64,000 nt of DNA from Rhynchosporium graminicola. Its lineage: Eukaryota; Ascomycota; Leotiomycetes; Helotiales; Ploettnerulaceae. The DNA is taken from positions 248,001-312,000 of the forward strand of contig FJUW01000047.1 of assembly GCA_900074885.1 (NCBI GenBank). Reading direction: 5' to 3'. Shown in pieces: positions 14,846-60,509 of the stretch. The translations under genes and the position numbers were made by a program. The stretch's first letter is position 1, and each line of letters begins with the position of its first letter. The notes beneath the pieces were generated by a model that worked only from the letters and a program-made list of their open reading frames with translations, ran no database searches and was not told the DNA's origin.

Positions 14846-14854
14846 GTTGTAGTG

Positions 14855-15242
14855 AAGTTCGCGTCAACGAGGAGCAGTGTAATACTCGTGACACGGTGGG
14901 AAACGACACTGGCAAGCCAGGCGGTCAATCCCCTCAAAGAAAAATGAGAATAATCAAAGTCTCATCCTTGAATGAGGACTGAGGATTCTGATAATTATTA
15001 GCAAGGACGCAAGTCAAATGACAGAGGGGATACCTACATGTCAGTCAGAACAGACTGCAGACTGTCAGCGAAACGAACCCGATGGGGTGCAGGAGTGTAC
15101 TCACTACTACCTAAAAGATTGTTAGTATATGGATGTTGGATAGTTGAGATTGAGAACTTACACTTGATCTAAGCCAATAGGCAAAGCTTCATGGGTGTTA
15201 GCAGGCGATCTTTGAGGGGGATTGGGAAAAACGGACAGAGCT
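14855..15242 (-). ncRNA. U2 spliceosomal snRNA gene, copy 1, interrupted by four predicted introns
   Basis: U2 snRNA pairs with the intron branch site in the spliceosome. Reading the minus strand, predicted introns are 15236-15187, 15161-15111, 15104-15055 and 15037-14988 (50, 51, 50 and 50 nt). Exons between them: 15186-15162 (CTTTGCC..GGCTTAGATCAAGT), 15110-15105 (GTAGTA only), 15054-15038 (TCTGTTCTGACTGACAT) and 14987 onward. Joined, they give the canonical GATCAAGT-GTAGTA-TCTGTTC. Stem-loop IIa is GACTGA/TCAGTC with the fourth intron in its loop; IIb is CTCAT/ATGAG; then an Sm-like ATTTTTC, an SLIII hairpin CTGGCTTGCCAG, and SLIV with stem GTGTCACGAG and loop TATTACACTGCTC, close to the vertebrate SLIV loop. 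Branch sites include a perfect TACTAAC. The 3' end at about 14855 is estimated and the 5' end lies in the exon before 15237. A single uninterrupted transcript would not be a functional U2. Confidence 0.9.
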
Positions 15243-15275
15243 TGGGCTGGTAGAGGGTCGAGGGGAAGCCTCTAA

Positions 15276-15281
15276 CTTATA
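15276..15281 (-). promoter_or_regulatory. TATA box of U2 copy 1
   Basis: TATAAG on the minus strand, 45 nt from its first base to the end of the AGCTCT block that precedes the first predicted intron. The same spacing (44-45 nt) occurs in copies 2 and 3. Confidence 0.6.
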
Positions 15282-15282
15282 G

Positions 15283-17957
15283 AAATTCATGCGGCACGCT
15301 AGTGGCTCGCTTCCGATGATGTTTGAGCTGTTTGCACGTTCCTAATCCAGCTTAGTGATGGTGTGTCGGCGGAGAATATGAGGACTCGCCAAGACTTTGT
15401 GATGCGGTAGAACTCACTGATGTGCTACAAATGGAAGGATTATGTGACGGCTTCGGTAATTGAGGTCCACAACACCAGTCCCGCACTCTCGGCTCGAGTA
15501 ATGTAGCATGTGAAGCTTGTCGTAAGGGGAAATGGAAGTCTTGCCCAGTGGCTTCAAAGTCAAACTTGAAATTAGTATTTACACCACCACTCGCTTAGCA
15601 ATGCCATCACCTAGGTTACCAACTTACATTCTTTTTGGAAAAGGAAATCTATACTTGAAGGCAGTTAATTCATGGTGAGAATTATGAATTCTTCGCTTCG
15701 ATTGTTCTTATATTTCTGCGGGGAAAGCTTGGTATGCAATCTCCCCCAGATAACTGTGATTCCAGACAGCCATCAAAGGTTACAAAGCGCCACACTCGCA
15801 ATCAGCACGCCACAAGTATATTGGCTCCCTTCTTGAAAACCGCTCTTCTCGCCTACTGCTTTGATGAAGCCGTTTGATTTTGCTCTTCTTTAGCCAGAAA
15901 TTTGGCCCGTTCGTATATCGCAAAAAGAATTCCAAGCTTCACCAGTGTCTCTATTTAAATCTGTCTTGTGACTAGTAATTAGCCTAGCCCATGCTTCAAA
16001 AAAAGCATACGTCTCCTTGTATAATTTCACCACAGATGTGACGGTTGAAAGGGGACGTCTCGCAATCGTATTATAGATGCACGAGGCTACAGGCATACCG
16101 ATGCCATATTCGCTGTCTAGAAAATGCTTCATTGTATAAGGACATCGAAGCTAAATGAACAAGTTCCGAATTGAAAGATCCATATAGCAGCGAATCTATT
16201 CAAGTTGAGCTTGCCATATCTGCGTTCCCCGGATGATGATGCTGGTGCGGACTGACTGCCGTCATCACTCATGTGTCCAAAATTCATTTACTTGCCGGTT
16301 GTATGGCTCCAGAAAACGTTTCATCACTGCGATCGGTCTCGGTCACGGTCATCGTATCTCAAAGCGATTCGATCACAAAGTTCATACCTAGTTCCTCCAA
16401 AGCCGGTTTTCCCCACCAGAAAATTGTCAATCTCGAAATTTGCCTCACTGAAAAAAATCAATATCACGTCACATAAAACGCGATCCTCGCCCTAAGCTTA
16501 ACAAGAAGAGATATGTAGTTCTACATCTGTATAAGCTATCGTGTGCTCTTGCCTACTGGTTTTCTCATATAAGCAAACCCCCAGATCACTAAATGGAGAG
16601 ACTAGTGATTTGAGTATCGAATCCGTATATATCAGCAGATACATTTGCAATATCTTTACCGATTCGAGAATTCTGATTGCGAAGCGGGGGAAGTCATTTT
16701 CGTCCTTGCTTCTTTATCTACTACCAGTTAGTGCTTGTCAAATCAGTTTACCTCTATCCACGGATGAAAATTTCCTTGACCGGACAGAGGTCTATTTTCC
16801 CAAGTTTCCACTCGCAAATGACTTAACATCTCTGTTAAGAATTTATGCTGTCATCACTAATCACCGGTTATAAGACAGGTCGTCTACTACAGTCCACATA
16901 TCAGGGTCGATGCAAGCATATTTACTTCCTATACTCTTTATATCCTCTCGCCCGGTCTGACATGCCCATTAGTTTCGTGATTCAAGTCTGCTCACCCCTG
17001 AAAATTGTAGCGTCAGTCAGAAAGTTTTATTCTTGCGATCTCATCCGTGACACCAAGATCCAGGCCATGGCCTTTCAAATACTTCAGGGTAAATTTCAAG
17101 CTCTTCTTGACCGTCATTTACAACACTTTAGCCAGCTCGTTTTCGTTACCTGCCTTTTACTACAAAAATCTCGTATCATTGAAAACCAGATGATTTAAGA
17201 CAAGCTAGCGTGGAAATTCGGCCGTGCAGCAAGCTAGTCTCGCAGTAAAGGCGAAAAAGCGAGCATTTGTCTGAGTACGGCCAGTTCTTTTGACGGGGAA
17301 TGTGGGTTTCCAAGTTCTCTTCGAGATGAAGACCTCCTCGGTCATTTTCTGCCTTGATCTCGTTGTTATATTCCTGAAGTTCTTGTTCTCACGATCAGGA
17401 TCAAGCTGACGCGCCTTCAACCTGGTATTGATATCCTCCTCCTGTCGGCTGTTGCTCACGTCCATTCTTTGCTCAACTCTCGTTATTGTAGGAGCAGGTG
17501 AAGTATCTCTCATGGGCACTGCAAGATGCAATGTCGATTTTCACGGGGACGACTCAGCTGACGGCTGAGGGATATTCTTGACGGAGGCGCTAGAGCGACG
17601 AATGGTGGTGTGTTGCTATGACGGGCTGCTCAATTGGTGTGGTATTATGACTTTCCTATTTGGCTAAAGTGAAAAGGGGATTAGTCGCTCGTTCTGAGGA
17701 AAAATTTGAGTCCCACAGCAGATTTTGTAAGTGGGCGAGCAGGCGAGCAGGCGAGCTCGGCGCTAGCGACCTGTTTACTCCTCGTCTAGCTAGCGCTGCG
17801 CAGAAAGTGCTGGCTCAGCCCGGAAAGCATACTTACGGAAGCAGTCTTAGCCTGTATTTAATATTTGTGTCGTATTCTAAATATCGCGAAGTGTTCTTGG
17901 ATGAACTTATCGCGCATCTCCGTGCACCACCATAAAATTGTCCATCCGCAGCCCAGC
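15283..17957. other. 2.7-kb gene-poor region
   Basis: No supported gene. Open frames at 15890-16132 (-, 80 codons) and 17205-17531 (-, about 108 codons) have no recognisable domain and no splicing context. A GGCGAGCA repeat lies at about 17735-17757. Confidence 0.4.
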
Positions 17958-19875
17958 ATGGCTGCCTCGTCTCACCACGATGACGGCGACCTTGAGACCG
18001 ACGCAACTGATCATCCCGCTGTGCCAACTAGGATACTGAAGAAGAAGCCCTCTGGTGTTGAAATTGGAAGTATTCGCAGGAAGAAAGCTGCTGAGAGAGT
18101 GGTTGTATCGAAGTCAAGCATTCGTTCGTCCCCATATAGCATGGTGCAAGATCATCTGTTTGATGCAGCGTTGGCGTCGGACGTACTAGATATCCAACAA
18201 GATCCCAGTGTTGTCGAGCCTATGAACGATAGCGTCACATCAGGAAATCCTTATAGTATGAGAGCTCAACACTACCATGCTATGTATGCCCATTTGAGCT
18301 CGCGATATTATTCGGTCGACGAGTCAAGCCACTAACACTGCCACAGGCAGAGAAGCTAGAGGATTTGAAGGGAGATGAGCCTGCCGAAGGCGAGGCCTGC
18401 TTGGTTTGACCAGAACTAGAGAACGACGAGCTGAGGGAGGACAAAAACGCATCGATGACTGGGATGAGAGTATGGAAAAGCCTATCGCCGCTTGTTACAT
18501 AGAGGTTGAAGACAACAAGACTTTACCTTATACTCTGGGCTCTTCTATCAATATTCTAGATTCTGTAAGTACTACTCTATTATCTCTTGAGATTAGTAGA
18601 CTTTCTTATAGAATATCGATACTTGATCTCCTCGAATCTTCAGATTATCTTAAGATGACTTCGAGAAAACTAATTCCGAAAATCTTTAGGTTTTTATATT
18701 ATCTCGATAAGGATTAAATTAAGAATGATTCTTAATTTCTTCGAATCTTTTTTGATATCTACTAACTTGAGAGTTTTCACAGGCGAGCGTTAACACTTCT
18801 CTCAACTACAATACGATAGCGAAGGACAAATAATCAACTCACTTGCGGGGTTTGACTATCGACAACTGGCGTTCAACTTTATTACCGCCGCAAGAGACAA
18901 CTCTATTGAAGCCTACCTCAGAAGACAAATACAGAGAGATCCTCGTTCAATGCTTTCGTAATGAAGGGCCCAAGACCGAGACTGAGAAAGGCATTTTCGA
19001 AGATTACAAGGGCTATCTCGAAGTTCGTGCTGACCCTTGGGGAGATCCAGCTTTCAAGAGCGTGCTAAAGAGATTGAGCCAAAATGCTGTCTTGGATGAC
19101 AATTCAATAAAGTGGGCTATGACATTTTTCGGTATCTGGGTGCAAGGAGTAATTCAAGAGCATACTGAAGCTATTGCCTCTGCTGCGCCTGAAATTCTCG
19201 AAACCTATATCCCATGCAAGCAGAAGAAGGTGAACTCACATGCTTTATTACTTTTTACCCTTGAGGCTTCAAATTACTAAATTCAAGTAAGGTACATCTC
19301 TTATCGCCATCAACATGAGAGACCGCATCTAGCACTATCTCTCAACATCGTCCAGAGGCCAAGAAGATCAAATACGGTGAATTTCCAGGTTTACCGGAGC
19401 GATACTTACAATTCCAGGAGGTGTGTCTATTCCAAACTCTGAACATCCCAAGTCTATACTCAAGATAACTAAACGATTAAAGATAACTGCCTTGATTCAA
19501 GGCTTTCGGCGTGCGGAAGCCTTCCTCAAGGGACCATACAAGGAGTCGTTCGACGTGAAGGCGCTTGGCGGTGCTATGGTGGATTTCAATGTCTTGAGAC
19601 AAACCCGTCGGAAGGATGGCCAGCTGGAATCTTTATCGGCGTGCGCAGGAAAGATGTTTATGCGAGTCTGCGAGGAGAATCAATTCATGGAACGAACTCG
19701 TGAGGGTCTGGAGATTATCCCAGAAGGTCAAGAGCTTGTCGTTGGAGATTCCACGACGTCCTCATTGAGTGGCATGTTGCCTATTCGCTCGACTTCTTCT
19801 ATGAGTGGTATCCTACCCCCGCCAGCACGAAATGCCGAGTCCGGAGGCAAGTTTCCATCCCCTCCACCCACGTAG
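17958..19875 (+). pseudogene. Hypothetical multi-exon gene, probably damaged
   Basis: Not recognised. Several blocks look coding: 17958-18310 (starts MAASSHHDDGD, with a basic RRKKAAERVV stretch), an exon after the acceptor at about 18346 (AEKLEDLKGDEPAEGEA), a block at about 18430-18565, a block at 18840-19230 (EDKYREILVQCFRNEG..), one at about 19360-19420 and one at 19502-19875 ending in a Pro/Ser-rich tail. Good introns separate some of them, for example GTGTGT at about 19421 to CAAG at 19501. Blocks cannot be joined in one frame: at 18780-18960 a second frame (LAGFDYRQLAFNFITAARDN) reads as coding and then shifts, and one junction carries a TAA. The 18566-18781 intron is about 216 nt and very AT-rich, unlike the 50-nt introns elsewhere. 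Either a frameshifted relic or an unusually spliced gene. Confidence 0.45.
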
Positions 19876-21915
19876 AAGTCGGAATCCACAAGTCTTTGAG
19901 GGTGGTCGGGTTATTGATTAGTTCGCGGCGTTGCTTTGGCTATTCAAAAGCCTACGATCGGGATTGGGTTTGCTAGACCATGTCAACATATGAATTAGTC
20001 TAGCATAAAAGAATGATTCCGTAGGTGACCCGAGCATTCCAATAGATGAGGTCTATATCAGCAATAAGTCTATAACACTGGGGTTAAGTGTCCTTACAGA
20101 AAACGTGATGAGAAATACTGAGATTTGATCTCCAATTGTGCCTGTGTCAAGTCTTCGCTGAGTAACAAGCGCGTGTTAGATCTCTGCCATGGTCGAGTGA
20201 CAAACCAGCTCCATCGACCCGTAACAAGTCATAAGCATCTGAGTAGTTGTCCTCATGCCTACGTAGACTCCACAAAGGAGAGTCTTAGTTCTGGACCACG
20301 TAGACGGTGGGGCGAATCTTTGGGCCGGTGTAAAATTCTGTGTAATGGAATAGATTTGATAACCAGATCTGACTCTCGTATTTGAAGTAACTTAGGTAAC
20401 TTGGAGAGCAGAGCGTGGGCTTCGTAAACTGAGTCCGTGGTAAGAGTTTCGAAGCTGCTGAGGTGAGGTTCAACAAAGGGATTACAAGGAATATGGAAAT
20501 CGAGTGAATTCGTGTGAAAGCTCCACGCCTTCTATATTGACTCAAGCCAAGCGATGGGATTTTTTCCATAAATTTATATCCTATCTCAGTATCTGTCCTG
20601 CGGCATCCTCGTGACTCCGAAATAGGCTCGAAGTACTTTTCTACAGCTACCGCCAGATTTCATATCAGAAATAGTAGAGTCTTTGTGTAATTCCAAAAGG
20701 TAAGGAACTCTTTGCCATGACTTCATCGATGAATTTAACGAGTGGCACTTTGCCTTTTCGCGGACCTCGACCTCATGAGTGTCAATCTACGCGCTCAAAC
20801 CCTGATACCGAAGATGAGGTTACAGGTTCTCCAAGAATACGGATGCATCATATGAGCGGATTCATATTCAATTACCTGAGTTCCGAATATCATGAGCAAC
20901 TGATCATTCTAAAAAAGTTGGTTGGTGATGCTGCTTATTAGGTTGACAACATTAGAGCGTGCGATGTTGGCGGAAAACCAATTAAATGTAATCTGCTCAG
21001 GAAGGATGTATGCCGGAGCTATATACTTGAAGAAGAGGGCTGTCAACACTTAGGTACACTTCACTCTTAGTCCTTCCAATGAAGTTCTATGAGCAAATTA
21101 AGGCATGGGTTCCCATTCTCCGAGGCATAGCTCCATTCCTCAAATGCCATCACTCTTTCAGGGTCGACGGCCTCGCCACCTATGATAATGCCGCGAGTCC
21201 CCATAGTCTAAGTTCAAGATCTCGATACCTTACATAGTTTTTCACATGTGACTGTGTTTGTGAGTACTGGAGAAACGAGTTCTATTGTCCCAACTGGCTT
21301 CATGATGTTCTAGAGGGTAAAGTCCAAAAGACATGCGAACTAATGTTGACGGTGGAGTAAAATAAGAGCGAAAATTGTCAAATCTAGGCACATATGTCTC
21401 GGGCGAAGTAATTTACAGAGTAGAACCGTGGTGGCAAAATCGAAATTTCTTGTCATTACATTCTTGTCGTCAGTGATTAGGTGGAATTACCTGTAAATAT
21501 CAATGTCCAGTCATCATACTGTGATATCGCCTTGCGAAACTGGAAAAGTAAGTCCAATTGTCTTTTGCTGAAGGTGAATCTACCTAAGCTCGAACATCAA
21601 ATAGGAATCGATTATTCAGCCAGCTCCAAGATTGCTTTTCCAGCTAGTAGACAAGCCTTTCCTTTGCTCCTACAGAAAGATACTCATATAGAAGTGACTT
21701 TGTATCCTTGGAGCATCGTATCGAACTTTACTTCTTCTTCATTCAATGGGTTCCAGCGCAAGGCCTCGAAGTCCCCCTACGTGCGGGCTACTTTTTCCTC
21801 AGTTGCCGCGCTAAGCTTAACTTAGTATAGAGTAAACAGATAGGTAGTCTGTGTCACGTGAGACCTGTCAAACACCGTCAAACATTCTCGCTTGGCAGCG
21901 GCCCACAATTATCTC
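19876..21915. other. 2-kb gene-poor region before U2 copy 2
   Basis: No supported gene. A 74-codon ATG frame at 20717-20941 and a 114-codon frame at 21481-21825 have no recognisable motif. Confidence 0.4.
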
Positions 21916-21921
21916 TATAAA
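21916..21921 (+). promoter_or_regulatory. TATA box of U2 copy 2
   Basis: TATAAA, 45 nt from its first base to the end of the AGCTCT block, matching copies 1 and 3. Confidence 0.65.
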
Positions 21922-21954
21922 GCACCGTGGTCTCTTCCTATGTTCGGGTGAGGC

Positions 21955-22345
21955 AGCTCTGTATGTTTTTTCACCCCCCCCTCAAAGATCGCCTGCTGAT
22001 ACCCACGAAGCTTTGCCAATTGGCTTAGGTACGCCTCCTCTTCAACACTCCTTTGACGATATTTGTTAACTTTCTCCGAGATCAAGTGTAGTGTAAGCAC
22101 TCCTCTTTCGCTTCCACATATCCACTAACCTGTTCCAGATCTGTTTTTTCTAGCTTGTGAGTATTCTCTTTATCCTTTCGGCTTGCAAATCTATACTGAT
22201 ATCGTCCAGAATCACTAGAATTCATCTAAGGATGAAACTTTGATTATTCCTATTTTTCTTCACGGAAATTGACCTCCTGGCTTGCCAGTGTCTCTTTCCA
22301 CTGTGTCACGGATACTACACTGCTTCTCGTCGACGCGAACACTTT
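21955..22345 (+). ncRNA. U2 spliceosomal snRNA gene, copy 2, interrupted by four predicted introns
   Basis: Predicted introns: 21961-22010 (starts GTATGT), 22029-22080, 22093-22138 and 22157-22209 (50, 52, 46 and 53 nt). Exons between them: 22011-22028 (CTTTGCCAATTGGCTTAG), 22081-22092 (ATCAAGTGTAGT, a 12-nt exon), 22139-22156 (ATCTGTTTTTTCTAGCTT) and 22210 onward. Joining restores GGCTTAG-ATCAAG and GTAGT-ATCTGTT of U2, with one change (TTC to TTT). Stem-loop IIa is TTCTAG/CTAGAA with loop CTTAATCA, and the fourth intron sits inside that loop after CTT, the same place as in copy 1. IIb is TTCAT/ATGAA; the Sm-like site is ATTTTTC; SLIV is GTGTC/GACGC with loop TACTACACTGCTTC. Branch sites include GTTAAC, CACTAAC and TACTGAT near the 3' ends. 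The transcript ends are estimated. Confidence 0.9.
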
Positions 22346-22382
22346 CATTGCGAATCTTGGCTTGCCAGGATTGTGAAGAAGA
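22344..22382 (+). promoter_or_regulatory. Conserved downstream hairpin element of U2 copy 2
   Basis: TTCATTGC, short variable part, TTGGCTTGCCAGG and GAAGAAGA, the same block found past SLIV in the other two U2 copies. Confidence 0.5.
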
Positions 22383-24326
22383 CGGTCTGTGTCTTCGTAG
22401 CCCCACTGGGAAAAGTTTCAACAAAACTACAGCTAAACGACGTTACATCGTGTCATCTTTACGTCGGTATGCCAAATCAGCATGCGTCTTCTAAGGGTCC
22501 TTGCTTTGTCACTTCGGCCAGATCGAACGCACTTCAGCCATTTTCAAATCCCAGCATGCGCACTCAAACATCGACCGAAAGATCCAAGCCAATCTCTTCG
22601 TAATATGATAAAGCGGGAGGGGGGTACAGCGGAGGAAAAATATAAGAAAAGCACGACGGGACGATGTACAGATTCGCGGATCAGATACTTTGCTCAGCGG
22701 GTGCAAGAATGGTCTATGAGTCAGCGCACAGATAAGGCATGGAACCAATACAGAGAGGCCATCTATCCATCGGCAGGAAGAATGCGCCTTATCCGCAGTT
22801 GCCATCCTATCGGGCAGAAATGAACGGGGGATGGGAAACAGCAGCTTTGTGCTTAAAACGTGCCCGAGTGACGAGAAGGAACGAAAGGTTAAATACAAAA
22901 AGCTGTTTGATGATGAATGACTTGGAAGCGTCAGATCGTGTGAGATTGAAATGACGGGTATGCTTTTGGAATTATAACAAGGGTTAGGTGCGGGCAATGG
23001 AATCCATTCATGTTACATATCTACAATTCTCCATACCTCCAGGTCCCTCTCATCCTCTCCGAATCCACCCTTTTGAGACTCTTTTATCGGCAGCTCTGAA
23101 GCCCATTGCACCTTCTGTTACCACCTCCTGCCACGACTTGCTGGTCCGCTCGTATTATCTCTACGGCCATTCTTTCGTCCACACCCTACCACACCAGCCT
23201 TCTAAATCCAAGCCCTACTCCCAAAATGATCACGTCCGATTTCGAAAAGCCAGCGTGTTTCGCATTCGCATGTGTCGTGGGCATAGTGGTACATTAATAG
23301 TTAGTAGTGTTTGATACGTTTGTGGGTAGTTCTGGCAGTCCAGGTAATTCAACGGTGGTGTTCTGGTGTCTCTCTCGGTATATCATTTCCTCGCACCAAT
23401 TACAAAAGAAAATTGAGACGAAGAGTAATGATATCGTCAGAAATCTAGACTTCACGCAATAATCTGTAGCATGAGCTTCCGTTCCACCGCTGATATCATA
23501 TGGGTCAGAAGAGACTACCGTTGTTTTGTCCAAGAAGACAAATCCGCAGTATCCATTCATGTATCGTTGATTAAGGTAAGAGTCATATGCTTCGGATGTT
23601 TGCTGAGACATCTCCAAATCTGAGAGAGTGGCCTGATTAGCTAGTAAGCAAACATTCAGTGACCGGATGGGAATTGACGTTGTGAAAGGCAAAGGCTCGC
23701 CTAAGCGTCGTGTTGGTGTAAGAACTGTTTCGCCAGCCAGCTAATATACGTCCGCCATTGCTTTAAGTTGATTTCTACTGGCGTACTCAAACGATTTTAT
23801 AATTAAATTAACAGGAGCCTTTGCATGTGCCCAAAAGATATGCTGTTTCTCTCCAACCTTTATTTACCTAGCAACGACTGTTGTGTAAATTCAACTACGG
23901 GCAGGAAGAGATTCCAAGTCCTAGCATGCCACAGCAGCAATCGCCGCTGAAATGGCAACATTTGTGGGCGAGAAGACTAACGCTTGCACTATAAGACGCA
24001 ATGGGGGGAACAAACGCAGAGACTTCAAAGAGGCCGCGGTGGAAAGCGATACAACTTCTGGCACGAGGCTGGTGACTCTGTTTGAAACGATCCTTCTGGG
24101 AAGTGAATTGCTTGTCTCTGATGTGGAATTGCTTGCAACAAGCCGATCTCTCAAAATGTCACTTCGGGATGGTGAATAGTTTGTCTACGACATGAGATTG
24201 CTTGAAACAATACTGCAAACGCGTGCACAGAAAGAAAAGTGAAATGACAAATACCACCATCTACAGAGTTGAAAATTAATCGGTCGTCCCCAAACCAACT
24301 TTCACTCCAAGTTCCATTCTAGAATT
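22383..24326. other. 1.9-kb region without a firm gene
   Basis: The best candidate is a minus-strand frame at 23294-23611 (ATG, about 105 aa: MSQQTSEAYDS.., one hydrophobic segment FLTISLLFVSIFF, Asn-rich tail), possibly a small membrane protein, but it has no relative I recognise. The rest shows nothing supported. Confidence 0.35.
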
Positions 24327-24933
24327 ATGGCGAAATCAGACCAAGGCAATGATGTCTTTCTCGAATGTATCGAAGGGACACCACTAGAGACTTCTCAAAC
24401 TCCGGGGTCTGAGCAGCCAGAGACTCATCGATCAAGTCCAGCTACAGTAAGTGGAGAAAGCACGAATGGTCTTGACAGCCCTCAGACGGCTCGTGATCAA
24501 ACCATAGAGGAGAAACATCAAGCTGTATGATCCACCTTCCAGATACGCTCAAGACGTTGCTCATGTTTCCCAGGCACTCGCAGAATATGAGAACAAGCAT
24601 TATGTTGCTTGCAGAGATAAATGCATGGAGCTCCTCCGAGACGGAAATTTACCGTCCATAACACGATGCCAGATACTTCAACTCTTCGCCTCTTGTTCCT
24701 ACTACTATGGAGCAAAGCATGCCTTGGAACAAGCTTTAATCATCGCCAGTAATGTGAGGTTTTTTCCTGCTTTGTACGGTCCGCATACTAATGAGGTTCA
24801 GTTGGAAAACTTGGACCCAAGCCACGTGTTGCAGAAGGATGTTGAGGATATGTTGGAGGATCTTGAGCAGTTTCGTCCGAAAGATGGTGCCCCGAGAGCC
24901 TATATCAAGGAATTCGAGTACGACGAGAACTGA
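24327..24933 (+). CDS. Small hypothetical protein with TPR-like C-terminal half
   Basis: Not recognised as a named family. Two exons, 24327-24524 and 24574-24933, joined in phase 0, about 185 aa; the intron has donor GTATGA and acceptor CCCAG. The first 66 residues are polar and Ser/Thr/Pro-rich, probably disordered. The second exon predicts helices with a repeat-like pattern (YENKHYVACRDKCMELLRDG, then YYYGAKHALEQALIIA), as in tetratricopeptide helices, and ends acidic (DVEDMLEDLEQF..EFEYDEN). A role as an adaptor would be inference only. Confidence 0.65.
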
Positions 24934-42200: not shown

Positions 42201-45200
42201 TCGATGAGACTTTCAGTTGGTTCGGAGGTCTCAGCAGCGTTTTGAATTTGGGCAGCTCCATGGCATCGAATGCAACTGTTACTGCCAACAGTGCCAGCAA
42301 GCCGAGACCACGAGGGGTACATTTTGAAACGCCCATTCGACCTGATGACAATTCCTTGGCCGCACAGAATAAGGTGGACATAAGAGTGGGAGGTTTTGTT
42401 CTTGACTTGGTGGGTACCGAGTGCAGTGTTGGAGTCGAGACATCTGCTGTCAAAGTAGTTAGTCGTGATGAGGGAATCGGAGTCTTCGTTCAGAAGATCA
42501 GATTGTCTGGTCCACATCTTAAGCGGGCCCATGAAGAACCCGCAATTAACGTGGAAATCACCTCAACGCGTGTTGAGTACCTCGCATCTCCAAAAGATGC
42601 TGATTTAGACCGCCTACTGTCCCTCATCACCCCATCTAAGGCCAAGTATGACCAAGATGACGATATTTTGCTAGATACACTCCTACGCCAGCGCAAACAA
42701 GGTGCTGTTGTGCGTCTCACCATCGAGGATTGCCAGGCCCGAATTGGAAGATTACATGAGTTCAGCTATCTCCCTGAGCTTGGCGAAGAGGTGTCTAGAT
42801 TGTCTACAGTCGCAAAGTATCTACCTGACGATGATCGGCCGGGTCTGCTCTCTTTGATTACGGTCCACACATTAAATGCCAATGTGGACATTGGGGAACC
42901 TCTTGGCACCGTCCGACTCTTGTCGACCGGCATCGAGATCGCTCAAATAAGTCTCCCATCCCTAATAGCACTCAGTGTCGCTGGTATTTCAGCTCGGCGG
43001 AATGCATCAGAAGAATTGATCGGGGCTGCCACTGAGCCAGAGCTGCGAGACCCACGAGCCAGAAGTCCCGCCGTGATGGCAAGAATGATCGGTGACGAGA
43101 TGGAACCTGTAGTAAAGATCAAGCTTTGGAACCTGAAAGTCGAATATCGTGTCACTACACTCATGACGATACTGGGTCTCACAGAAAATGCCACAGTTCA
43201 AGACATTTCTGCAAGCTTGACAGCGTCAGTAGCGACTTTGACAGAGTTCGCTCAAATCAAGCACGCTCGCAGCACCATGCCTCCGCCAGCTACGGGAAAA
43301 AGGTTCCATAGCTCAAAACCCTTGGCAGTTGATATCGTCCTACGGGACTGTATATTGGGAATGAACCCCTTGAGCTTGCCATCGAAGGTTTTAGTGGTTC
43401 TGACAGAAGCTCATGTCGAGGCAGTTCTACCCAAAGATCAGAATGCGAGTGCTATGATGGAGTTGAACAAAGCATCTATTTTAGTCATCGACAACGTAGC
43501 TCATCTCACACCCGAACAAGGCAGCACAGATCCTCGCAGAAACTCATTCGATGGAGGAAGTACACAAGTTGCCGATTTGTGCGCCACGGGATACGTCTCT
43601 GTCAGCTATATATCCTCCGCAAAAGCAATCATCCAGATGTCGACGAGCGAAGATGGGGAACAATCGCTTGACGTGGAACTTCGAGATGATCTATTCGTGC
43701 TCGAGTCATGCGCCGATTCCACGCAAACGCTCATTGCTGTCCTCGGTAACCTCTCACCTCCGATTCTTCCCACCAAGGAAACCAAATACCGCACGAAGGT
43801 CATTCCAGTACAAGATTTACTTGCATCCCTATCTGGAGACGCATTTGGTACTGCAGAGGGAGATTATAATTTCGATGATGACTTTGGGCTTGGCGAGGGG
43901 TTAGCAGAAGATTTCTCTGCTGAGGACGTCGACGACCTTGACTTTGACTCTCACTACTACCAGAGCGATACGGTCGAAGGCTACGATGAGGCGGTGTTAG
44001 AGGATGAGGACGGCTCTGTTGCTTCTACTCATGTTACAAGTCGCGACACCCACGATGGTGTCTTGCTGGATAGTATTGTCGAGCCCCAACAAGTTCTTGA
44101 GAATCAAGACTTAGAATTTCAAGATGATCATTTCGGCACAGGATCTGTCTTGGAAGGAACAGCACACAGATGGAATTCTGCCAAGAACACTTACGATCGA
44201 TCTAACGCGCACAAAATCAGAACAAGTCCGCTCAGAGTTTGTGTACGTGATGTTCACATTATATGGAATCTGTTCGATGGCTATGATTGGCAGCACACTC
44301 GAGATGCCATTTCACAGGCGGTTCAAGATGTCGAGTCAAAGGCAATCGAGAAACGGGCGCGAAACGAAAGGCGTCCAACGTTCGACCAGGATATTGACGA
44401 AGAGGAGACTGTTATTGGGGACTTCCTGTTCAATTCTATATATATCGGTATTCCAGCGAATCGTGATCCTCGTGAGTTAGCTGCAGCAATCAACCAGGAA
44501 CTCAACGATAACGCGACAGAGACCGAGTCAATTGCCACAACCTCGGTATCCTCTTCTCCCAGTAGACAAGGGGGTCCGCGCAAGACAAGGACTAAAAGGC
44601 TACGGTTACAGAGAAGCAAGCACCACAAGATTACCTTCGAGCTCGGTGGAGTTTCTGTAGACCTGGTTTCCTTTCCCCCTGGAAGTGGCGAAACTCAGAA
44701 TTCAGTTGACGTCCGAGTGCGTGACTTTGAGATCTTCGACCATGTCCCGACATCAACCTGGAGGAAATTTGCGACGTACATGCAAGATGCTGGCGAGAGA
44801 GAAACTGGCACGAACATGATACATATAGAAATCCTCAACGTCAAGCCGGTTCTTGAACTAGCTGCTGCTGAGATTGTTCTCAAGGCGACTATCCTTCCGC
44901 TCCGACTTCATGTCGATCAAGATGCTCTCGATTTCATAACCAGGTTCTTTGAATTCAAGGATGATACTACTCTCACTGAGCCCTCCCCGAGCGACTCCCC
45001 CTTCCTGCAACGAGTAGAGGTCAATTCAGTCCGAGTCAAATTAGACTTCAAGCCAAAGAGAGTAGATTACGCCGGTCTCAGATCTGGGCATACCACGGAA
45101 TTCATGAACTTCTTGATCTTGGACGAAGCGGATATGGTTCTTCGTCACACTATCATCTATGGTATATCCGGCTTTGAGAAGCTTGGGAAATGCTTGAACG

Positions 45201-49895: not shown

Positions 49896-50519
49896 TGGGA
49901 TGCATCTTAGGTTGGGTAGCAGGGATGGGGTGGGGGTATCAAGCAAACTGGCTCTTTTTCTGCTTGGAAGGGAATGGATGGATAGACTCGGGGCAGGGTG
50001 CTTGTATTTGCGCCGATTTACTTGGTGACTTTGGCAACCGACAGACTTGAAACACGTTTTAATATAGTAAATATAGGAGAACTATTTTCTCGTTTACAAA
50101 ATGTAAGAAGGCCGCATTAAACCCCTCACACTGTCCGTCTATGATTCCGAATCATCGCCCAGCCGCGAAGTCACTGCTGTTAAGCACCCGTCAGAGCATA
50201 GTTATTTCTCCATACAATATGGGCAAAGACTAGCTTGCCGAGTTAGCCATCATCTGGCCTCTAAGGAATCCAGAGACAGAAGAAATTCTTTGCTTCTTGT
50301 TCTGAGTCTAGACAAAATTAAATCGAGTTCATCGTAGAAAGCTTCGAAGAACACTTCATGACAGCGACCAACTAGATATCACACAGAATTAGGGGAAGGT
50401 TGAAAATAAGTCCTTTATCATCGCGTCTGATTGGATATCGAAGACTATGGCCATCATCTGCGGTTGATCTCAGCCAGCGGCAGGCACAAATTCCGTAGGA
50501 AACATGGCGCCCAGCCAAT
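49896..50519. other. Intergenic region between GH3 relic and permease
   Basis: No gene or repeat recognised. Confidence 0.4.
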
Positions 50520-52726: not shown

Positions 52727-54025
52727 GGTTGCTGGTCGTTCCGACAAGTAGTTGTTGATTGGAAGAGAAGGGGTTATGGGAGAGCTGAAGATCTTATAGG
52801 ATCCAGAAAGCAGGCTGGGTTACGGTAGCACTGCAGGGCTCATATCTGCCGAGGGGTGTGGGATTGTAGGTGCAAAAGCTACGGAGAAGTCGTGCGTGGC
52901 CGGGCGGTTGCAGATGCAGATGCAGACTGCTGCCAGACACTGAATATTAGAGTTTGTGACCTCCACCCTCCGCTTTCGATGTCTACATTCAATGGCCAAT
53001 GTGGGGAGGCTTGTAGCCCTTCCACCTAAGATTCGCTGAACCTGAACCTACGAGGCTGTCAACAGGCGCGTCTGGCTGCCAGTGCACATGGATTCGAACA
53101 TATCGACAGAGTTGTCATGGATCAAGGAAGTGAGGGGTCGTTAATGGAGAGCTCCAATCTAAACACTTGCATACACTTTGCCTGATACAGAGTTGCTGGG
53201 CGATCTGGCCAATGTACGATCTACGGAGTATCGTGATGGATCCAGGATTGTACGCCACCATGTATCTTGTCAAATAAATAGGCTTCACAACTCAATCAAG
53301 TGAGTTGCTGGGCTGCGCATTGACCGAGCCAGGGCTTCAGTCTGTCCCGTCCTTTCGTTTTACTGTAGCATTGTATACATGCCGGGCCTTTGAGTTCGCA
53401 ACTTGGACTCAAACCCTTCATCTTGTGGTACACGGTCGTGCAGGGAAGGATTTTGTGCTTCTGGAAATGCTCGAATCCTTCTGCGAGATGTCCAATTCGA
53501 TACCTCGCTTGTTTATTTCTGGAAGCGGGCGAATCCCGTGGAGCGGCTCGTTACGACTTGACGTAGCAACCGGTACATTATGTCAGCCTTCGTGGAGATT
53601 ACACATTGCCGGGCAGTTCAGCCAGCGATATGTACTGTTTGAGCAGGAGGATCCTGAAGGCTGAACCAGCATTGGTCAACATCTTCTCGCTCTCTTGAGA
53701 ATCGTAACTTCCCACACTCGGAGGGCGAAGTTTAGAAAAGCATCGCCTACGGAGTAGTTCCTCGGCGACACCGTTGGTAAGAAGCTTAAATGGCTGACTT
53801 CCCTTACGGAGAAAATTGGCGTACATGGGCAGGGTGCTTCAAGACTATCTTGAACCAATAATAAAAGTTGTCGAGAAAGGGCCGAGGCGATAAGCACCCA
53901 TGTAAATTCAAAGTGAAGCCATTTGCTGACAGGGCCCTGCATTAAGTTAGTTACTAAGTAGCTGTGTTTGGCAGAAAGTAGCCAACCTTTCTTTCACTAC
54001 TTCTGCATGAGGATGCTCGCGATCC
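52727..54025. other. 1.3-kb intergenic region
   Basis: Upstream of the permease; no supported gene. Frames at 53305-53664 and 53676-53942 show no motif. Confidence 0.4.
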
Positions 54026-54027
54026 TA

Positions 54028-55388
54028 CAGAGGTACAGCGGTGAAGTGTTGTAAGAGGGGCCGACCAGGGTTTAGAGCTAAACCTATATAGGTAATATTA
54101 CTAGAATAGCTATGGACACGTATTAGATAGTATCTTAGGAGTAATAAAGTGTTCAAAACATTATTAAGATATCAGAAGTCATAATTAAGGCTCCTATAGC
54201 TCTTACTAGATCGAAATATACGAAAGCTCCTGAGCTTACACGCGATCAGCGCCGTGATATTACTCTTCTTCACTTAATCAGCTGGTCTTATAATTAAATT
54301 TCGAGCTACTTACCTTTCACTCCTACGATACGATAAATCAACTATGTAATTAATACTCGAGCTACTCCGAAGAAAAAGCCAGGTCGACCTCCTATTCTTA
54401 CTTAAGCTCAAGTCGAAGAGCTAGTCGAATTCGTATGTGCCTCGAAGTAAAATAAGCGTATAAGCTATACTTAACTAGCTAACGCACTTGAATTTAGAGT
54501 TAAGAAGGATACTATTCGATCCGCCCTTCTACGAGAAGAGTTTCACTAACGATTAGCTATACGAAAACTACCTATTTCAGAGATAAATCGCAAGATCCGA
54601 CTAGCTTAGGCTAAGGAGCATAAGAATTAGACTCTCGATTAGTAGTATCGAATACTTTAGACAGACGAGACCTGGATTACCGGAGGAAGATATACTTATA
54701 CCTAGGTGACTCGAAGAGCCGGTAAAGAGTAGGACGAGACTTGTATCGTTAAGAGAGTTTAAAGGAAGAAAGGCTAGATATTCTAGGGATATTTTCACGG
54801 ATATACGAAAGGACTAGGTATCTTCTAGGAGAAGGATTAGGGCTCGATAGACTAAGATTCATACTATTAATATATAGTACTAGTGATCTATAGGTATATT
54901 AAGCTTATAAGGCGTTAAGGAAATCATCTAGTACTTATATAAGACTTAGCCCCGGGTTATACTGCCGGCGATACGAAGCAAGACCTTCAGGAGCGTAGAA
55001 TAGTAGTTATTTTCTGGCTTGCTTTCTCTCCTGATTTAAACCCAATCGAGAGAGTCTGGTATATTATGAAAAACTACCTTTAAGATCATTACCCTAATAA
55101 TATGTCCTATAGTCGGCTTCGAGAGGCTATAAAGGAAGCGTAGGAAAATATCGGAGAGTACGAATTCAGGGAATTAATCGAGAGTATACTAGCTCGATAT
55201 GAAGCAGTAGTTCAAGCGGAAGGAAGATTTATAAAATACTAATCATTTCTTAAATGATTTTTATATTTTTATATATATAAATAATCGTGAAATCTATATA
55301 AAGTGCATTTCTAAAATACTACCTGTTTAAGGAAAGCTTCCTGCCCCCTGTTCGGCCCCTCTTATAACACTTAACCGCTGTACCTCTG
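54028..55388. mobile_element. Tc1/mariner DNA transposon, RIP-degraded
   Basis: 1361-bp element flanked by TA on both sides (54026-54027 and 55389-55390), the target-site duplication of Tc1/mariner. Terminal inverted repeats of about 37 bp start CAGAGGTACAGCGG and end GAGGGGCCGA; the arms differ mainly at G/A and C/T positions. The interior is very AT-rich. Same-orientation transposase remains are visible: TRDQRRDI, KKKPGRPPILT, LWTDETWITGG, DLAPGYTAGDTKQ and FSPDLNPIERVWYIMK. Confidence 0.93.
54200..55243 (+). pseudogene. Tc1/mariner transposase relic
   Basis: Plus-strand frame inside the element with many TAA and TAG stops where Gln or Trp codons would be expected, the pattern of C-to-T change from RIP. 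The first catalytic Asp is in WTDETW, the third in SPDLNPIERVW; the second lies in a mutated segment near 54950. The last readable part is ENIGEYEFRELIESILARYEAVVQAEG. Nonfunctional as read. Confidence 0.9.
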
Positions 55389-55390
55389 TA

Positions 55391-57178
55391 AAGCTGAATT
55401 CAAGAGCTTTCGAGCAGATAGATCCGCTGTTAGTCAAATCCCACGAGGCCGGCCTTATCGAAGATGGCCTGGAGCTGGTAATGCCCTTGCTCACTCTGTG
55501 CCCTCTAGATCTCGAGAAAGGCCATGCAGCCTATATTCCAAGTTGTTTGACAGGATTCGTGATATTGGTGCTCCCATTAAAGCCGTCCATGATTGGGTAC
55601 TCATGTCAGCCCGTATCACCTCCCCGCCCCCGTCCCGGTATGAGCTTCTTAACTTTAAACATGTTATCTTCTGAACATGTCACAAGATAGCCCGTAAACA
55701 GAGTTAGAAGGACTAGAACCAAGAGTTTTTGGCCGATTATTTCCAATGCCTCGGAAAACAGTGGAACATTTTTCCATGGCTCAACCACCTAAAACAGGTA
55801 GCTAGCTGCTTTATGCTGGGCGATGTAAACCTGTAGGAATCACACAATCAGTATGGGCATAATCTGGTCACGAATTAAGGCAATATGGGTTTTGCGCTCA
55901 ACAGTCATGAGCTTCGGTACCAGATCCAGCAGGTAAGCAAGACGCGCTACAAGAGGTCGCTGATGGCGTACTAAAGAGACGCGAGTTTACTGACTAGACT
56001 TTACCGTAATAGTAGCTTCCTCGTCGATAGATGACCAATTACAGCGCGCGCGCCATCGACACTCTTTCTAGAAGAAACACATATACCTCACATATAAAGC
56101 CACGCTCTTCGCAACTCGTCGCTTCTACCTTACATATATAGCTTGATCGATTACGGCGCCTTTAAAGGCTCGCAAGCTATTGGATTTATCACCTATCTTC
56201 AAAGAGGTAAGGTGCACTTGCGAGGCCATCAGAATTAGGTCGTTTCAGGCTGATCAAGGAGGTGAAACCCGAGATCTATAAAGGGGTCTTTGCCTGCTAG
56301 CAGAGCATCGATTTGCGTAAGAGAGATAGTTGAGTCTGCTATAGTACTAACAGGTAATTATTGCTCGAATTTGGGTATTTGGCTATTCGGGATATACTGG
56401 TTATGTGATTGCTGTAGGTTTACATCGCCTGGCTTAAAGCAGTTACCTGTTTTAGGTGGTTGAGCCATGGAAAATAATGTTCCACTGTTTCCGAGGCATT
56501 GAAAATAATTCGCCAGAGTTTTGGGGCTTCCTTTCGTCCTCGATAAGGTATTCTTATCTTCAAGCTATAGATCGCAAGGGTGTAAGCACGCCAAAGCTGC
56601 ATTTAGTTGCGTGAGTTCGAATTTGGAACGCTTGCATATATGCCCGGAATAGGAAGGTGTCAACTCGCAGTGGCTGCTAAATCTTTACGATGGTAGGGGT
56701 ATCTTATCAGAGCTGACCTGGATCCGAGGTAGTCGTTGGGTTTGCACTCCTGGAGATCCGAAAGCACCCAACTATCCCGTTTCAAGTCCATCAGGGAAAA
56801 CTCTACATGTTATCTAATGCCTGCGCTCTGATCTTCTCGCATTGACAACAGACCTCGCCACGATTACACCTCCCTTGATAGAACTTGAAAAGTAGCTAAT
56901 GGAATATCATTTGACCCAGTTAAAATAGAAGATGACCCCTTTGGCACTAGTTCTGCGCAGAAACAGCTATATAGTGCTGGATTGCCTACTGTAAGGAAGC
57001 GGCACTTGACATTGCTCCGTTGGCATACAAATATCACTAGCTTGCTGATAAACAGGAAGAAGCGTCTGAGTTGACAAGCACCCAGAGAAAGCACAAGTAT
57101 CGTTAAGCACGCGGAATGAGCAGGCAATGACATGGCAGACATCTAAGTCTCGATAACAAGCTCCGAAAGCAGTGGGAT
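55391..57178. other. 1.8-kb region with an inverted duplication and no intact gene
   Basis: AT-rich DNA between the transposon and the GPI11 gene. It holds the inverted repeat listed separately at 55705-56545. Nothing else is recognisable. Confidence 0.4.
55705..56545. repeat. Inverted duplication with arms of about 150 bp
   Basis: Left arm about 55705-55870 and right arm about 56380-56545 match in opposite orientation, including TCCAATGCCTCGGAAA, CATGGCTCAACCACC, CTAAAACAGGTA and GGCGATGTAAACCT, with scattered mismatches and small indels. About 510 bp separate them. Read as protein the arms give WN/HYFPWLNHLKQV, so they may be copies of a coding fragment. Confidence 0.8.
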
Positions 57179-57514
57179 GTGATATGGTCAGTTCCCACTA
57201 GACTAAAAGGTACATTGAGGAATCAAAGCCCAGTACTACTGGATCGATCTGCCACCGAAATAAGGAAAGGGGCATATGCTACTGCAGAGAACTGGGCCCT
57301 CAGTCTGATAGAAAGAATAAAGCAAAATTGCTCCGCAGTCAGAAAGATTCCAACGAGGATCGACTGGAACTACCCAATAACTGCCACCGAGAAACAGCAA
57401 CCTAATCAGGAGTACGACTGGTCCAGTCTACTAGAGAAGACAATAGAGTTTCTGAAAGAAGGAATCGAGGGTTGTATTGGTCAAACGATTGAATATCCAC
57501 CATATGACGGATGA
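57179..57514 (+). other. Open frame of 111 codons, possible 3' exon
   Basis: A stop-free frame with protein-like composition (EIRKGAYATAENWALSLIERIKQN .. KTIEFLKEGIEGCIGQTIEYPPYDG), rich in Trp, Tyr and acidic residues. It has no ATG at its 5' end, so it would need an upstream exon, which I cannot place. It ends 5 bp from the stop of the convergent GPI11 gene. Unrecognised. Confidence 0.35.
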
Positions 57515-57519
57515 TTCTT

Positions 57520-58324
57520 CTAATCCAGCTCGATTCTCTTTCCCTTCAAACCCCAAGCTCCGATTGTCTTGCCCAACACATATCCAGCGTACGCACCGGC
57601 TACGATCGTGACCGGCCATTTCTGCCATTCCCTATCCCAATCCAACGGAATCGGCACTGCGCCAACCCAAGCTCCCAACAGGCATCCGACCGCACCACCA
57701 AACACCTCATCGATAGGACTATACAAGGAGACTACCTCCCTCCATTTCCTGGCGTCGGAGCCATGGACGTATATGAGAGGGAAAACGGTAAGAAGGGCGA
57801 CGTGCGCGGAGCAGAGGAGGGTGTGGGGCAGGTGAGTGGTGAGAGGGGCGCCAAAGAGGATTTGGAGGATGCTTAGGATTGGGATGGAGAATGTTGTGAA
57901 TAGGAGAGCGACGAATGAGGTCTACATTTCCAACACATTAGCATAATTCAGAAGCAGTAAGAAGTCAGTGCCATCTACTTACCAGTATCCTCGTGGCAGC
58001 AGCTCCTTGTGGCTTCTTGGATGCGTTGAGTTTCACTTTCTTCACAACTTTGGGACTTGAGCCCACAGCTGGCAAGCAGACAACTGCGTACAGTATCTGC
58101 ACGACTGCCAGGGGCAATAAGGAGCTAAGCAGCGTAGATGTTGGTTGTGCGACTAAAGCTGGAAATCGAAGGTAGAAAGCCGAAAGGAGAATCGCGGGAT
58201 GAATCTGAGAGAATATCCGCGCAATATCGTTTGGCAGAAGTTCAATTGGCGAAGAAGGTTTGACTGTGATGACTTGTGGTGATGCGCCTGCGCTTGACAT
58301 GGTTACGGGATCAACGAGAGGCAT
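57520..58324 (-). CDS. GPI11: GPI-anchor ethanolamine-phosphate transferase subunit (PIG-F/Gpi11)
   Basis: ER membrane protein of GPI-anchor synthesis that partners the Gpi13 and Gpi7 ethanolamine-phosphate transferases. Exons 58324-57983 and 57921-57520 join in phase 0, about 247 aa, the usual family size. After a polar N-terminus come hydrophobic segments (IHPAILLSAFYLRF, LLSSLLPLAVVQILYAVVCL, SFVALLFTTFSIPILSILQILFGAP, LCSAHVALLTVFPLIYVHG). The closing region SPIDEVFGGAVGCLLGAWVGAVPIPLDWDREWQKWPVTIVAGAYAGYVLG is the PIG-F signature. The start at 58324 (MPLVDPVTM) is the first ATG in the frame; the frame opens further upstream without one. Confidence 0.95.
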
Positions 58325-58714
58325 TGCTGGTATCGTTTGAGCATGTTGGGGTAAGAAGTGATGGGGGACACTTTCAAGCTTCAATTATTCGAGGTATCGG
58401 AGAAACAATGTTCCGTTAGCTACTCGAAACTTATTCGAGTTGGATTTGAAGGCATCTATCTACGCACAAGCTGCTAAATGTGATCTTGTTGCACTGCTGG
58501 ATGAATGCATGATCTTCAATAAGCTCCTCATTTTGCCACTGCGATTCAGATAGCTGCTGGGCCTTTGCGTTTCTGCAGTCAGACATGAGGGTGGCAGAAT
58601 CTGGCAGGCTGCCCCAAAGCTACCCATGAAGTGTTGACCATTGTAATGCAGATTCTTATAGCCATCCATGCCAAAATCTCATGAATCATTGTGACCTTTC
58701 TACACATCCCCCAA

Positions 58715-59532
58715 TCAAGCTCCGGCCCCAGCTTTCGGAACCAGGTTCCTCAAAGACAAATCGTAGACGATATCCTCAATTTTCTTGACATTGTATTTGA
58801 TGCTATCGCTCCTCCTTCTCAGTGAATCGTTCTTGAGGTTCAAAATTTGGAATCCAGCATGTAGATCCTTAACGAACTGGCTGATTTGCAGAGGTCGTTG
58901 GTAATCGCCGAGAGTGACCGAATTGATAGCAAGCCGTGAGAGCTCTTCGATGAGGGTAATTAGGGATTGGAGGTATTCTTCGATTGTGATATGGAAAGCG
59001 TCTTTGTCTTTCAGGTTAACAGGCACTGCAGATTTTTCAGTAGGGGCAGCACTTGGGTAGAAATGAATAGCATACCGTCGAGAATTGCACCAACTTCTTC
59101 GATTGTGAGGAGTTTGCCTTGTTCCGCCTTGATATATGTGCTCATCCCACCAAGCCATCCGCAGAAGAGGATGGAGAAGACGACATTTTGTACATCTCGA
59201 GTCCAAAGGCTATTGTATTTGTAGTATGGGGATGACGAGGAGATCGCAGCGAGCTTGCTAATACTCTCTATTTCTTCTTTGATAGAGGCTTCTGCAGCGA
59301 CAAGAACCGGTTCAACTGCGATGGTTAGGAGATGTGAGCCTGATGAGGGGTAATCCTTACCGTTGGCAGCTGGAGTTGAGTGCGCCCTTGAGAGGACGGA
59401 TTGTGCATTTCGGCCTTGTCGCTCCAGCGTTTGGGTGATAGCTCTGATTTGGTCTCTGACATCTGCATCGTCGTCGATTTTGGTCTGCAGTTGCTCGAAA
59501 ATTCGAGGGTCTACCATTCCAGAGCTCGACAT
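58715..59532 (-). CDS. Translin
   Basis: Single-strand RNA/DNA-binding protein, partner of TRAX in the C3PO endoribonuclease. Exons 59532-59361, 59315-59076 and 59025-58715, about 240 aa, near the 228 aa of human translin. Start at the ATG of MSSSGMVDPRIFEQ; three codons upstream there is only a TTG. Conserved blocks: YYKYNSLWTRDVQNVVFS, LTIEEVGAILD, FHITIEEYLQSLITLIEELSRLAINSVTLGDYQRPLQISQFV, and GFQILNLKNDSLRRRSDSIKYNVKKIEDIVYDLSLRNL, which follow human translin closely. Some fungi lack translin, so presence is informative. The gene is head-to-tail with GPI11. Confidence 0.95.
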
Positions 59533-60135
59533 GATGGGCAATATAGAGGGTGGTTGTTTGGAGGGAGATTTTTACTCAGGGCATGTTCTAGGCTGGAGAG
59601 GCTTCCGAATTGTTCACCGACAAAGTCAAGATTATGGCAGCACAGAAGGCGGGCACAACGAGGCTTACAACAGTCTTCCTCGTGCAATGGCTGGCTAATC
59701 CAAAGAATACAGTTTTTGGAGAATATGGCAAGTTATGGTATTCTACATAGTCCGGCCCAGAGTTTCATGGCCGTATTGATTCTACCAAGTCACATTTCTA
59801 TTGGCCATGAATATCAGCGCACAATATGAAGATTCGCAAAATTAAATATACTTATGGGGTACAATAGTTAACAGTCTCTGATATTCTACAATCCCCAACG
59901 ATAAACAGTCTCTAATATTCTACAAATCTCTCCTTACTTAATTTCATGTGCCACAATCCTGAAGTACACGGCAAAGTTACCCACGACCATATATTTCTAC
60001 ACAACATGACAGTTTGCAATGCTTCGTACATTTGCCGTCATCCACACATAAATTCCCTGCAATCGTTCAGTCAACCCTAGTCCGCGCACACACCGACATT
60101 GCGCAATTCAAACCACCTCCTCAATTACTACGTAT
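59533..60135. other. Intergenic region between translin and U2 copy 3
   Basis: No supported gene. Confidence 0.4.
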
Positions 60136-60174
60136 TCTTCTTCACAATACTGGCAAGCCAGAATCTGCAATGAA
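60136..60174 (-). promoter_or_regulatory. Conserved downstream hairpin element of U2 copy 3
   Basis: TTCATTGCAGATT, the hairpin CTGGCTTGCCAG and TGAAGAAGA, in the same position after SLIV as in copies 1 and 2. Confidence 0.5.
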
Positions 60175-60178
60175 AAAA

Positions 60179-60470
60179 GGTCGCGTCAACAGGAGGCAGT
60201 GTAAGACCTGTGACACAGTGCGAGAAAGCATAGGCAAGCCCAGAGACTATCTCACGGGAGACAAAAATAAGTATAATCAAAAATCTTTTCCATTGGAAAA
60301 GTTTCAGAGATTAAACTGAAAAGAACAGATCTACTACGGGTTAGTGAAAGTCTTTCAGAACTGAAGACAATTGTGCTTACACTACACTTGATCTAAGCCA
60401 ATAGGCAAAGCTGTAAAAGTATTAGCAAAAGTAATCTTTGAGGTAGAATTTGGGGAGACGTGCAGAGCTG
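60179..60470 (-). ncRNA. U2 spliceosomal snRNA gene, copy 3 (closest to canonical), two predicted introns
   Basis: Minus strand. Predicted introns 60463-60411 (53 nt, starts GC, ends TTTTACAG) and 60380-60331 (50 nt, GTAAGC, branch CACTAAC, ends GTAGTAG). The exon 60410-60381 has CTTTGCC..GGCTTAG and GATCAAGTGTAGT, and the next exon begins ATCTGTTCTTTTCAG, so the joined core is exactly canonical. Stem-loop IIa is TTTCAG/CTGAAA with loop TTTAATCT and no intron. IIb is CTTTTC/GAAAAG, and the Sm site is ATTTTTG, fully consensus. SLIII and SLIV follow, SLIV with stem GTGTCACAGG/CCTGTTGACGC. This looks like the main U2 gene. Ends are estimated. Confidence 0.95.
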
Positions 60471-60502: not shown

Positions 60503-60509
60503 TTATATA
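60503..60509 (-). promoter_or_regulatory. TATA box of U2 copy 3
   Basis: TATATAA on the minus strand, 44-46 nt before the end of the AGCTCT block. Confidence 0.65.

Follow-up and report, generated by a model that had tools for sequence, protein, structure and literature searches.

Three diverged U2 small nuclear RNA genes of Rhynchosporium graminicola, apparently each split by spliceosomal introns

A 64,000-nucleotide (nt) stretch of the plant-associated ascomycete Rhynchosporium graminicola (Leotiomycetes, Helotiales, Ploettnerulaceae; GenBank assembly GCA_900074885.1, contig FJUW01000047.1, positions 248,001 to 312,000 of the forward strand; hereafter the window, whose own numbering is used below) appears to carry three diverged and apparently intact genes for the U2 small nuclear RNA (snRNA), here called U2-A, U2-B and U2-C, the introns of which would be removed by ordinary U2-type splicing. 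We put the probability of this interpretation at roughly 0.9. The genes were located by a search of the genome (55.3 Mb in 121 contigs) with the Rfam U2 model RF00004 (E <= 0.001; gathering score, 46 bits), scores being computed for 46 of the 1554 candidates from the first look. Matches were obtained at three loci, all of them inside the window; as unspliced genomic DNA, U2-A and U2-C scored above the gathering score and U2-B just below it (Table 1), a caution that genes of this kind can escape standard snRNA annotation.

These are the places at which a first-pass annotation, made from the letters alone, had put three U2 genes, claiming in addition that the U2 core is recovered once the interruptions are removed, that the interruptions have fungal donors, branch sites and AG ends, and that there are several per gene. 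The RF00004 matches confirmed the loci, U2-B remaining below the cut-off while unspliced, and the analyses described below bore out the recovered core and, for the seven introns that remain when the first of each gene (I0) is set aside, the splice signals. The last claim, which came with no counts, holds for U2-A and U2-B, with four introns each, and only weakly for U2-C, with two; if I0 is discounted, the counts become three, three and one.

Reading by eye combined with alignment gave ten introns of 46-53 nt at six positions, all of which fall within nt 1-54 of the mature RNA: after positions 6, 31, 37 and 54 in U2-A, 6, 24, 36 and 54 in U2-B, and 6 and 36 in U2-C. Apart from I0, every intron (7/7) starts with GT, ends with AG and contains a YTRAY motif with 10-11 bases following the branch A. 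Among random window segments of matched lengths, taken in three registers, GT..AG ends had p=0.0105 and the full pattern p=0.00027; because the branch pattern was defined after the introns had been seen, the fairer value for each intron is 0.0105. The seven donors pair with the 5' end of U1 at -4.7 to -7.4 kcal/mol. In style, the interruptions look like the spliceosomal introns of the U6 and U3 genes of the same genome, and from the sequence we infer that they are spliced. Self-splicing introns of group I or group II, whose ribozyme core takes up hundreds of bases, were ruled out by the lengths of the interruptions and by the lack of any such Rfam match in the window.

Joining the exons restores the core AGCTCTCTTTGCC[T/A]ATTGGCTTAGATCAAGTGTAGTATCTGTT; of its first 43 columns, 42 are identical across U2-A, U2-B and U2-C, the first six resting on the less certain I0. 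The branch-site recognition block of the Rfam model, GATCAAGTGTAGTATCTGTTCT, is matched at 22, 21 and 22 of its 22 positions in joined U2-A, U2-B and U2-C, respectively. Stem IIa reads GACUGA/UCAGUC in U2-A, UUCUAG/CUAGAA in U2-B and UUUCAG/CUGAAA in U2-C: both sides have changed at all six pairs, and every cell is paired. Slid partners yielded 0-1 such pairs, and two of 500 shuffles reached the observed value. In U2-A and U2-B the two strands of this stem lie on separate exons, with intron I3 between them in the loop, so that the paired changes across exons argue both against dead copies and for the junctions as drawn; selection, to judge from these letters, appears to see the spliced RNA. 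Stem I pairs in all cells of the three genes and is invariant, hence uninformative, and lower stem IV pairs in all three with little variation. An Sm site was read by eye as ATTTTTC, ATTTTTC and ATTTTTG in U2-A, U2-B and U2-C, and stem III is present in the predicted folds. Beyond the core the genes have diverged: when most of the U2-C last exon was used as a DNA query, the only sequence retrieved was itself.

The flanking elements are also shared with other snRNA genes. The motif GAAGAAGA lies downstream of all three U2 genes and of all four U1 genes (L007-L010), a count that rests on a separate comparison, the regular expression for the shared 3' element having failed in 7 of 11 rows. The 3' sequence of the U3 genes seems, by eye, similar to this element. 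A doubled CAAAC upstream of the TATA was seen, by the patterns used, in three of four U1 and three of three U2 genes. Genome-wide, doubled CAAAC with TATA gave 23+20 matches against 21+24 in the reversed control; being no commoner than in the control, the combination is unusable alone for finding snRNA promoters.

Table 1. Features of the three U2 loci and a neighbouring gene, in window positions
Feature	Position	Strand	Remarks
U2-A	15242-c.14852	-	RF00004 53.5 bits unspliced
U2-A TATA	15278..15281	-	39 nt upstream of exon 1
U2-A exon 1	15237..15242	-	AGCTCT, 6 nt; presumed 5' end, from TATA spacing and U6 pairing
U2-A intron I0	15187..15236	-	50 nt; GTCCGT..CTAAC..GAAG; weak donor; probable
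U2-A exon 2	15162..15186	-	25 nt; stem I to GATCAAGT
U2-A intron I1b	15111..15161	-	51 nt; GTAAGT..ACTAAC..TTTTAG
U2-A exon 3	15105..15110	-	six-base microexon GTAGTA, the branch-site recognition sequence
U2-A intron I2s	15055..15104	-	50 nt; GTGAGT..CTGAC..GCAG
U2-A exon 4	15038..15054	-	17 nt; TCTGTTCT and 5' strand of stem IIa
U2-A intron I3	14988..15037	-	50 nt; GTAGGT..CTAAT..ATCAG; in stem IIa loop; placed differently by alignment
U2-A last exon	14852..14987	-	IIa 3' strand, IIb, Sm-like ATTTTTC, stems III and IV; 3' end approximate
GAAGAAGA downstream of U2-A	14807..14814	-	
U2-B	21955-c.22345	+	RF00004 43.9 bits unspliced
U2-B TATA	21916..21919	+	39 nt upstream of exon 1
U2-B exon 1	21955..21960	+	AGCTCT; presumed 5' end
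U2-B intron I0	21961..22010	+	50 nt; GTATGT..CTGAT..GAAG; probable
U2-B exon 2	22011..22028	+	18 nt
U2-B intron I1	22029..22080	+	52 nt; GTACGC..TTAAC..CGAG
U2-B exon 3	22081..22092	+	12 nt; ATCAAGTGTAGT
U2-B intron I2	22093..22138	+	46 nt; GTAAGC..CTAAC..TTCCAG
U2-B exon 4	22139..22156	+	18 nt; reaches stem IIa loop
U2-B intron I3	22157..22209	+	53 nt; GTGAGT..CTGAT..TCCAG; position as in U2-A
U2-B last exon	22210..22345	+	3' end approximate
GAAGAAGA downstream of U2-B	22375..22382	+	
U2-C	60469-c.60175	-	RF00004 98.1 bits unspliced
U2-C TATA	60506..60509	-	40 nt upstream of exon 1
U2-C exon 1	60464..60469	-	AGCTCT; presumed 5' end
U2-C intron I0	60411..60463	-	53 nt; GCACGT..CTAAT..TTTTACAG; weak GC donor; probable
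U2-C exon 2	60381..60410	-	30 nt
U2-C intron I2	60331..60380	-	50 nt; GTAAGC..CTAAC..GTAG
U2-C last exon	60175..60330	-	3' end approximate
GAAGAAGA downstream of U2-C	60136..60143	-	
NTH1-like protein	13489-14685		identity 99% to the protein named R. secalis, 98% to that of R. agropyri, among the best 120 of 3117 matches; reading frame no more than about 200 bases from U2-A

Two details of the maps concern the branch-site recognition sequence. The intron that follows it stands after GUAGUA in U2-A (15104, - strand), one base downstream of its place after GUAGU in U2-B (22093, +) and U2-C (60380, -), an offset that may reflect intron sliding or separate insertion. At 15099-15116 (-) of U2-A, GTAGTAGTGAGT comes immediately after the acceptor TTTTAG, and the microexon opens like a donor (AG/GTAGTA), resembling a recursive splice site. 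Skipping this microexon would strip the branch-pairing sequence from U2, leaving an RNA that would be unable to pair with branch sites.

An intact, intronless U2 gene elsewhere in the genome, the case that the first-pass annotation had itself set against its claim, was looked for in the assembly with the RF00004 model and with two word searches and was not found. The exon-2 word TTTGCCNNTTGGCTTAG has three perfect matches genome-wide, all at the U2 loci of the window. Elsewhere in the genome it gave seven matches with one mismatch, against one match in all for the reversed control, and on reading none of the seven lies in a U2 context. The genome contains no match to the spliced word AGATCAAGTGTAGTATCTGTT with fewer than three mismatches and three matches with three (control, one); the two of these that were read, L025 and L026, are without U2 context, L025 containing 17 consecutive letters of spliced U2 and yet giving no Rfam match at E <= 0.01. 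An exon-intron word produced six matches in viral contigs, none with U2 context, and no match in prokaryotic genome contigs.

Several observations nevertheless weigh against three intact, intron-bearing genes. When the genes were aligned to the Rfam consensus with GT/GC-AG deletions enforced, six of the seven introns outside I0 were recovered and I3 of U2-A was placed elsewhere; we keep its placement because the position is common with that of I3 in U2-B and because of stem IIa. With cheap deletions, solutions lacking GT-AG ends outscored those having them in U2-A (116 vs 97) and U2-B (102 vs 93), though not in U2-C. The minimum-energy fold of joined U2-B does not form stem I, and the pair count draws on three sequences and solely on stems I, IIa and lower IV. 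Moreover, the searches score only part of the candidates, and the assembly, in 121 contigs and possibly incomplete, could lack a U2 copy. The last point would suit an explanation in which the three loci are dead U2 copies and a working intronless U2 is missing from the assembly, as would the score of unspliced U2-B below the Rfam cut-off. We consider this very improbable, since the exons have kept their near-identity while, among the intron pairs compared, only I0 of U2-A and U2-B are clearly alike, since all six changed pairs of stem IIa remain paired, and since all three loci have retained both the spacing of the TATA and the GAAGAAGA that lies downstream.

Two further points of the same kind concern I0: (i) its donors, GTCCGT, GTATGT and GCACGT, pair weakly with U1 (+0.5, -1.9 and +0.5 kcal/mol), and (ii) a 10-base block within it, CCTCAAAGAT, is identical in the three genes, which a plain intron does not explain. 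Both favor a U2 that has no I0 and instead either keeps some 50 additional nt at its 5' end or begins a little upstream of CTTTGCC, leaving three, three and one introns; so does the fact that about 0.8% of random window 9-mers, joined to CTTTGCC, reach -13.4 kcal/mol or better in their pairing with U6. We think such a U2 unlikely and I0 probably the real first intron of each gene, its exact bounds deduced from the features that follow. A branch site and AG stand directly before CTTTGCC in all three genes; the donor is GT in two and GC in U2-C, with +1, +5 and +6 invariant; and the distance from TATA to AGCTCT (39, 39 and 40 nt in U2-A, U2-B and U2-C), set beside the 40 nt from TATA to ATACTTACC in all four U1 genes, places the start at AGCTCT. 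Joined to CTTTGCC, AGCTCT pairs with the 3' part of the genome's U6, the helix II pairing, at -13.6, -15.2 and -13.4 kcal/mol in U2-A, U2-B and U2-C, whereas the unspliced 5' ends do so at -6.0 to -6.2 kcal/mol, so that splicing would strengthen this pairing from about -6 to about -14 kcal/mol. The junction ranks first in U2-A and U2-C and second in U2-B among all those tried (36, 36 and 40 for U2-A, U2-B and U2-C), and first in each gene among GT/GC junctions (4, 6 and 5); as the three genes are kin, these ranks are not three independent tests. With I0 removed, mature U2 would start AGCUCUCUUUGCC, which we take to resemble the start of U2 in Schizosaccharomyces pombe. The block CCTCAAAGAT includes CAAAG, a possible partner, in the manner of U6, for the CUUUG of the following exon; such a hairpin is absent from the minimum-energy folds.

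The other small RNAs of the genome put these introns in context. One U6 gene exceeds the cut-off (L004:1447-1660, G000:C66) and contains two introns of 56 and 53 nt, after ACATTTGGT and AAGGATGA; two further U6 matches, at 16 bits, are chance-like. The four U1 matches score 36-42 bits (cut-off, 69.5), cover the whole model over 134-147 nt and read as uninterrupted genes. U4 and U5 have one match each over the cut-off, end to end and with no intron-sized insertion. U4 also gave two weak partial matches, one of which (L013; G000:C116:812637-812716, -) corresponds to the 3' part of U4 at 26.7 bits, below the cut-off, and is a U4 fragment or chance. Two U3 genes exceed the cut-off, each with one intron by eye, of 62 nt (L035:1447-1508) and 63 nt (L036, reverse strand); the introns sit at different positions in the two genes, and the exon ends were likewise set by eye. 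Beyond U2 and U6, the catalytic-centre snRNAs, introns thus seem to occur in U3 as well. A cobalamin riboswitch match in the window (42844-43089, +; 21.8 bits, cut-off 31.5), within the ATG2 reading frame, is probably chance.

This survey bears on how the introns arose. U2 sits near the spliceosome active site, the six intron positions lie within its first 54 nt, and these positions presumably surround helix II, helix I, the branch-pairing sequence and loop IIa; together with two introns in the single U6 gene over the cut-off and uninterrupted readings of U1, U4 and U5, this pattern would fit introns that entered U2 by reverse splicing within spliceosomes rather than by ordinary gain with 3'-biased loss. 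We regard such an origin as doubtful. U3, which is not spliceosomal, reads as intron-bearing in both of its genes, and no copies of the introns used as queries (I1b and I2s of U2-A and the four of U2-B) were found elsewhere, except for the likeness between I0 of U2-A and U2-B. A 5' bias, moreover, needs no active-site story, 133 of 138 fungal U3 introns lying in the 5' half according to one survey (PMC5832005).

If the three genes are expressed as their sequences suggest, a capped pre-U2 RNA would be made, presumably by RNA polymerase II, from a TATA promoter with the spacing seen at the U1 genes. These precursors would carry four, four and two short spliceosomal introns (three, three and one if I0 is unreal), and existing U2-containing spliceosomes would excise them, joining exons down to six bases, so that new U2 would depend on old U2. 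That U2 supply depends on U2 had been claimed in the first-pass annotation as well; it would follow only if no U2 gene were missing from the assembly. We infer this dependency, and regulation by means of it is conjecture. A broader proposal, that no intronless U2 exists and each U2 stems from an earlier one, that the introns were gained separately by reverse splicing at U6 and branch-site contacts, and that the weak I0 or the GUAGUA exon now adjusts U2 supply to splicing capacity, strikes us as improbable when taken as a whole.

Were all U2 to need U2-dependent splicing, a central splicing component would have no intron-free fallback. The case makes testable both the entry of introns into spliceosomal RNAs and a feedback on snRNA supply through splicing. 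A six-base exon that is exactly the branch-pairing sequence offers an extreme test of minimal exon size, and three paralogs with differing intron sets are a ready-made natural experiment.

Among known systems, the closest is U2 of Rhodotorula hasegawae, a basidiomycete, in which a single gene reportedly has a single intron, placed directly behind the branch-site recognition sequence. The likeness to the genes described here is that a fungal U2 is interrupted by an intron of the mRNA type, reportedly at the position that I2 has here; unlike it, the present genes belong to an ascomycete, are three paralogs and have six intron positions with up to four introns per gene. Fungal U6 genes, in S. pombe and others, similarly have spliceosomal introns in an snRNA of the catalytic core, and these are familiar from the literature. 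Fungal U3 small nucleolar RNA resembles U2 here in being small and capped and in having short spliceosomal introns in its 5' part, but acts outside the spliceosome and hence involves no self-dependence. According to PMC5832005, frequent interruption by an intron is known, among small structured RNAs, for U3 and U6 only, U2 being unlisted there, and two introns per gene are reported for 4 of 310 U3 genes. A literature search, which did not extend to most subscription papers, brought up among the papers listed no report that we recognized of U2 genes with multiple introns, which is weak evidence that none exists. The first-pass annotation was right to call the arrangement unusual, though R. hasegawae, with its U2 intron, provides a precedent (Takahashi et al. 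1993, as cited in PMC2586383); the several introns per U2 gene read here in R. graminicola are well supported by the sequence.

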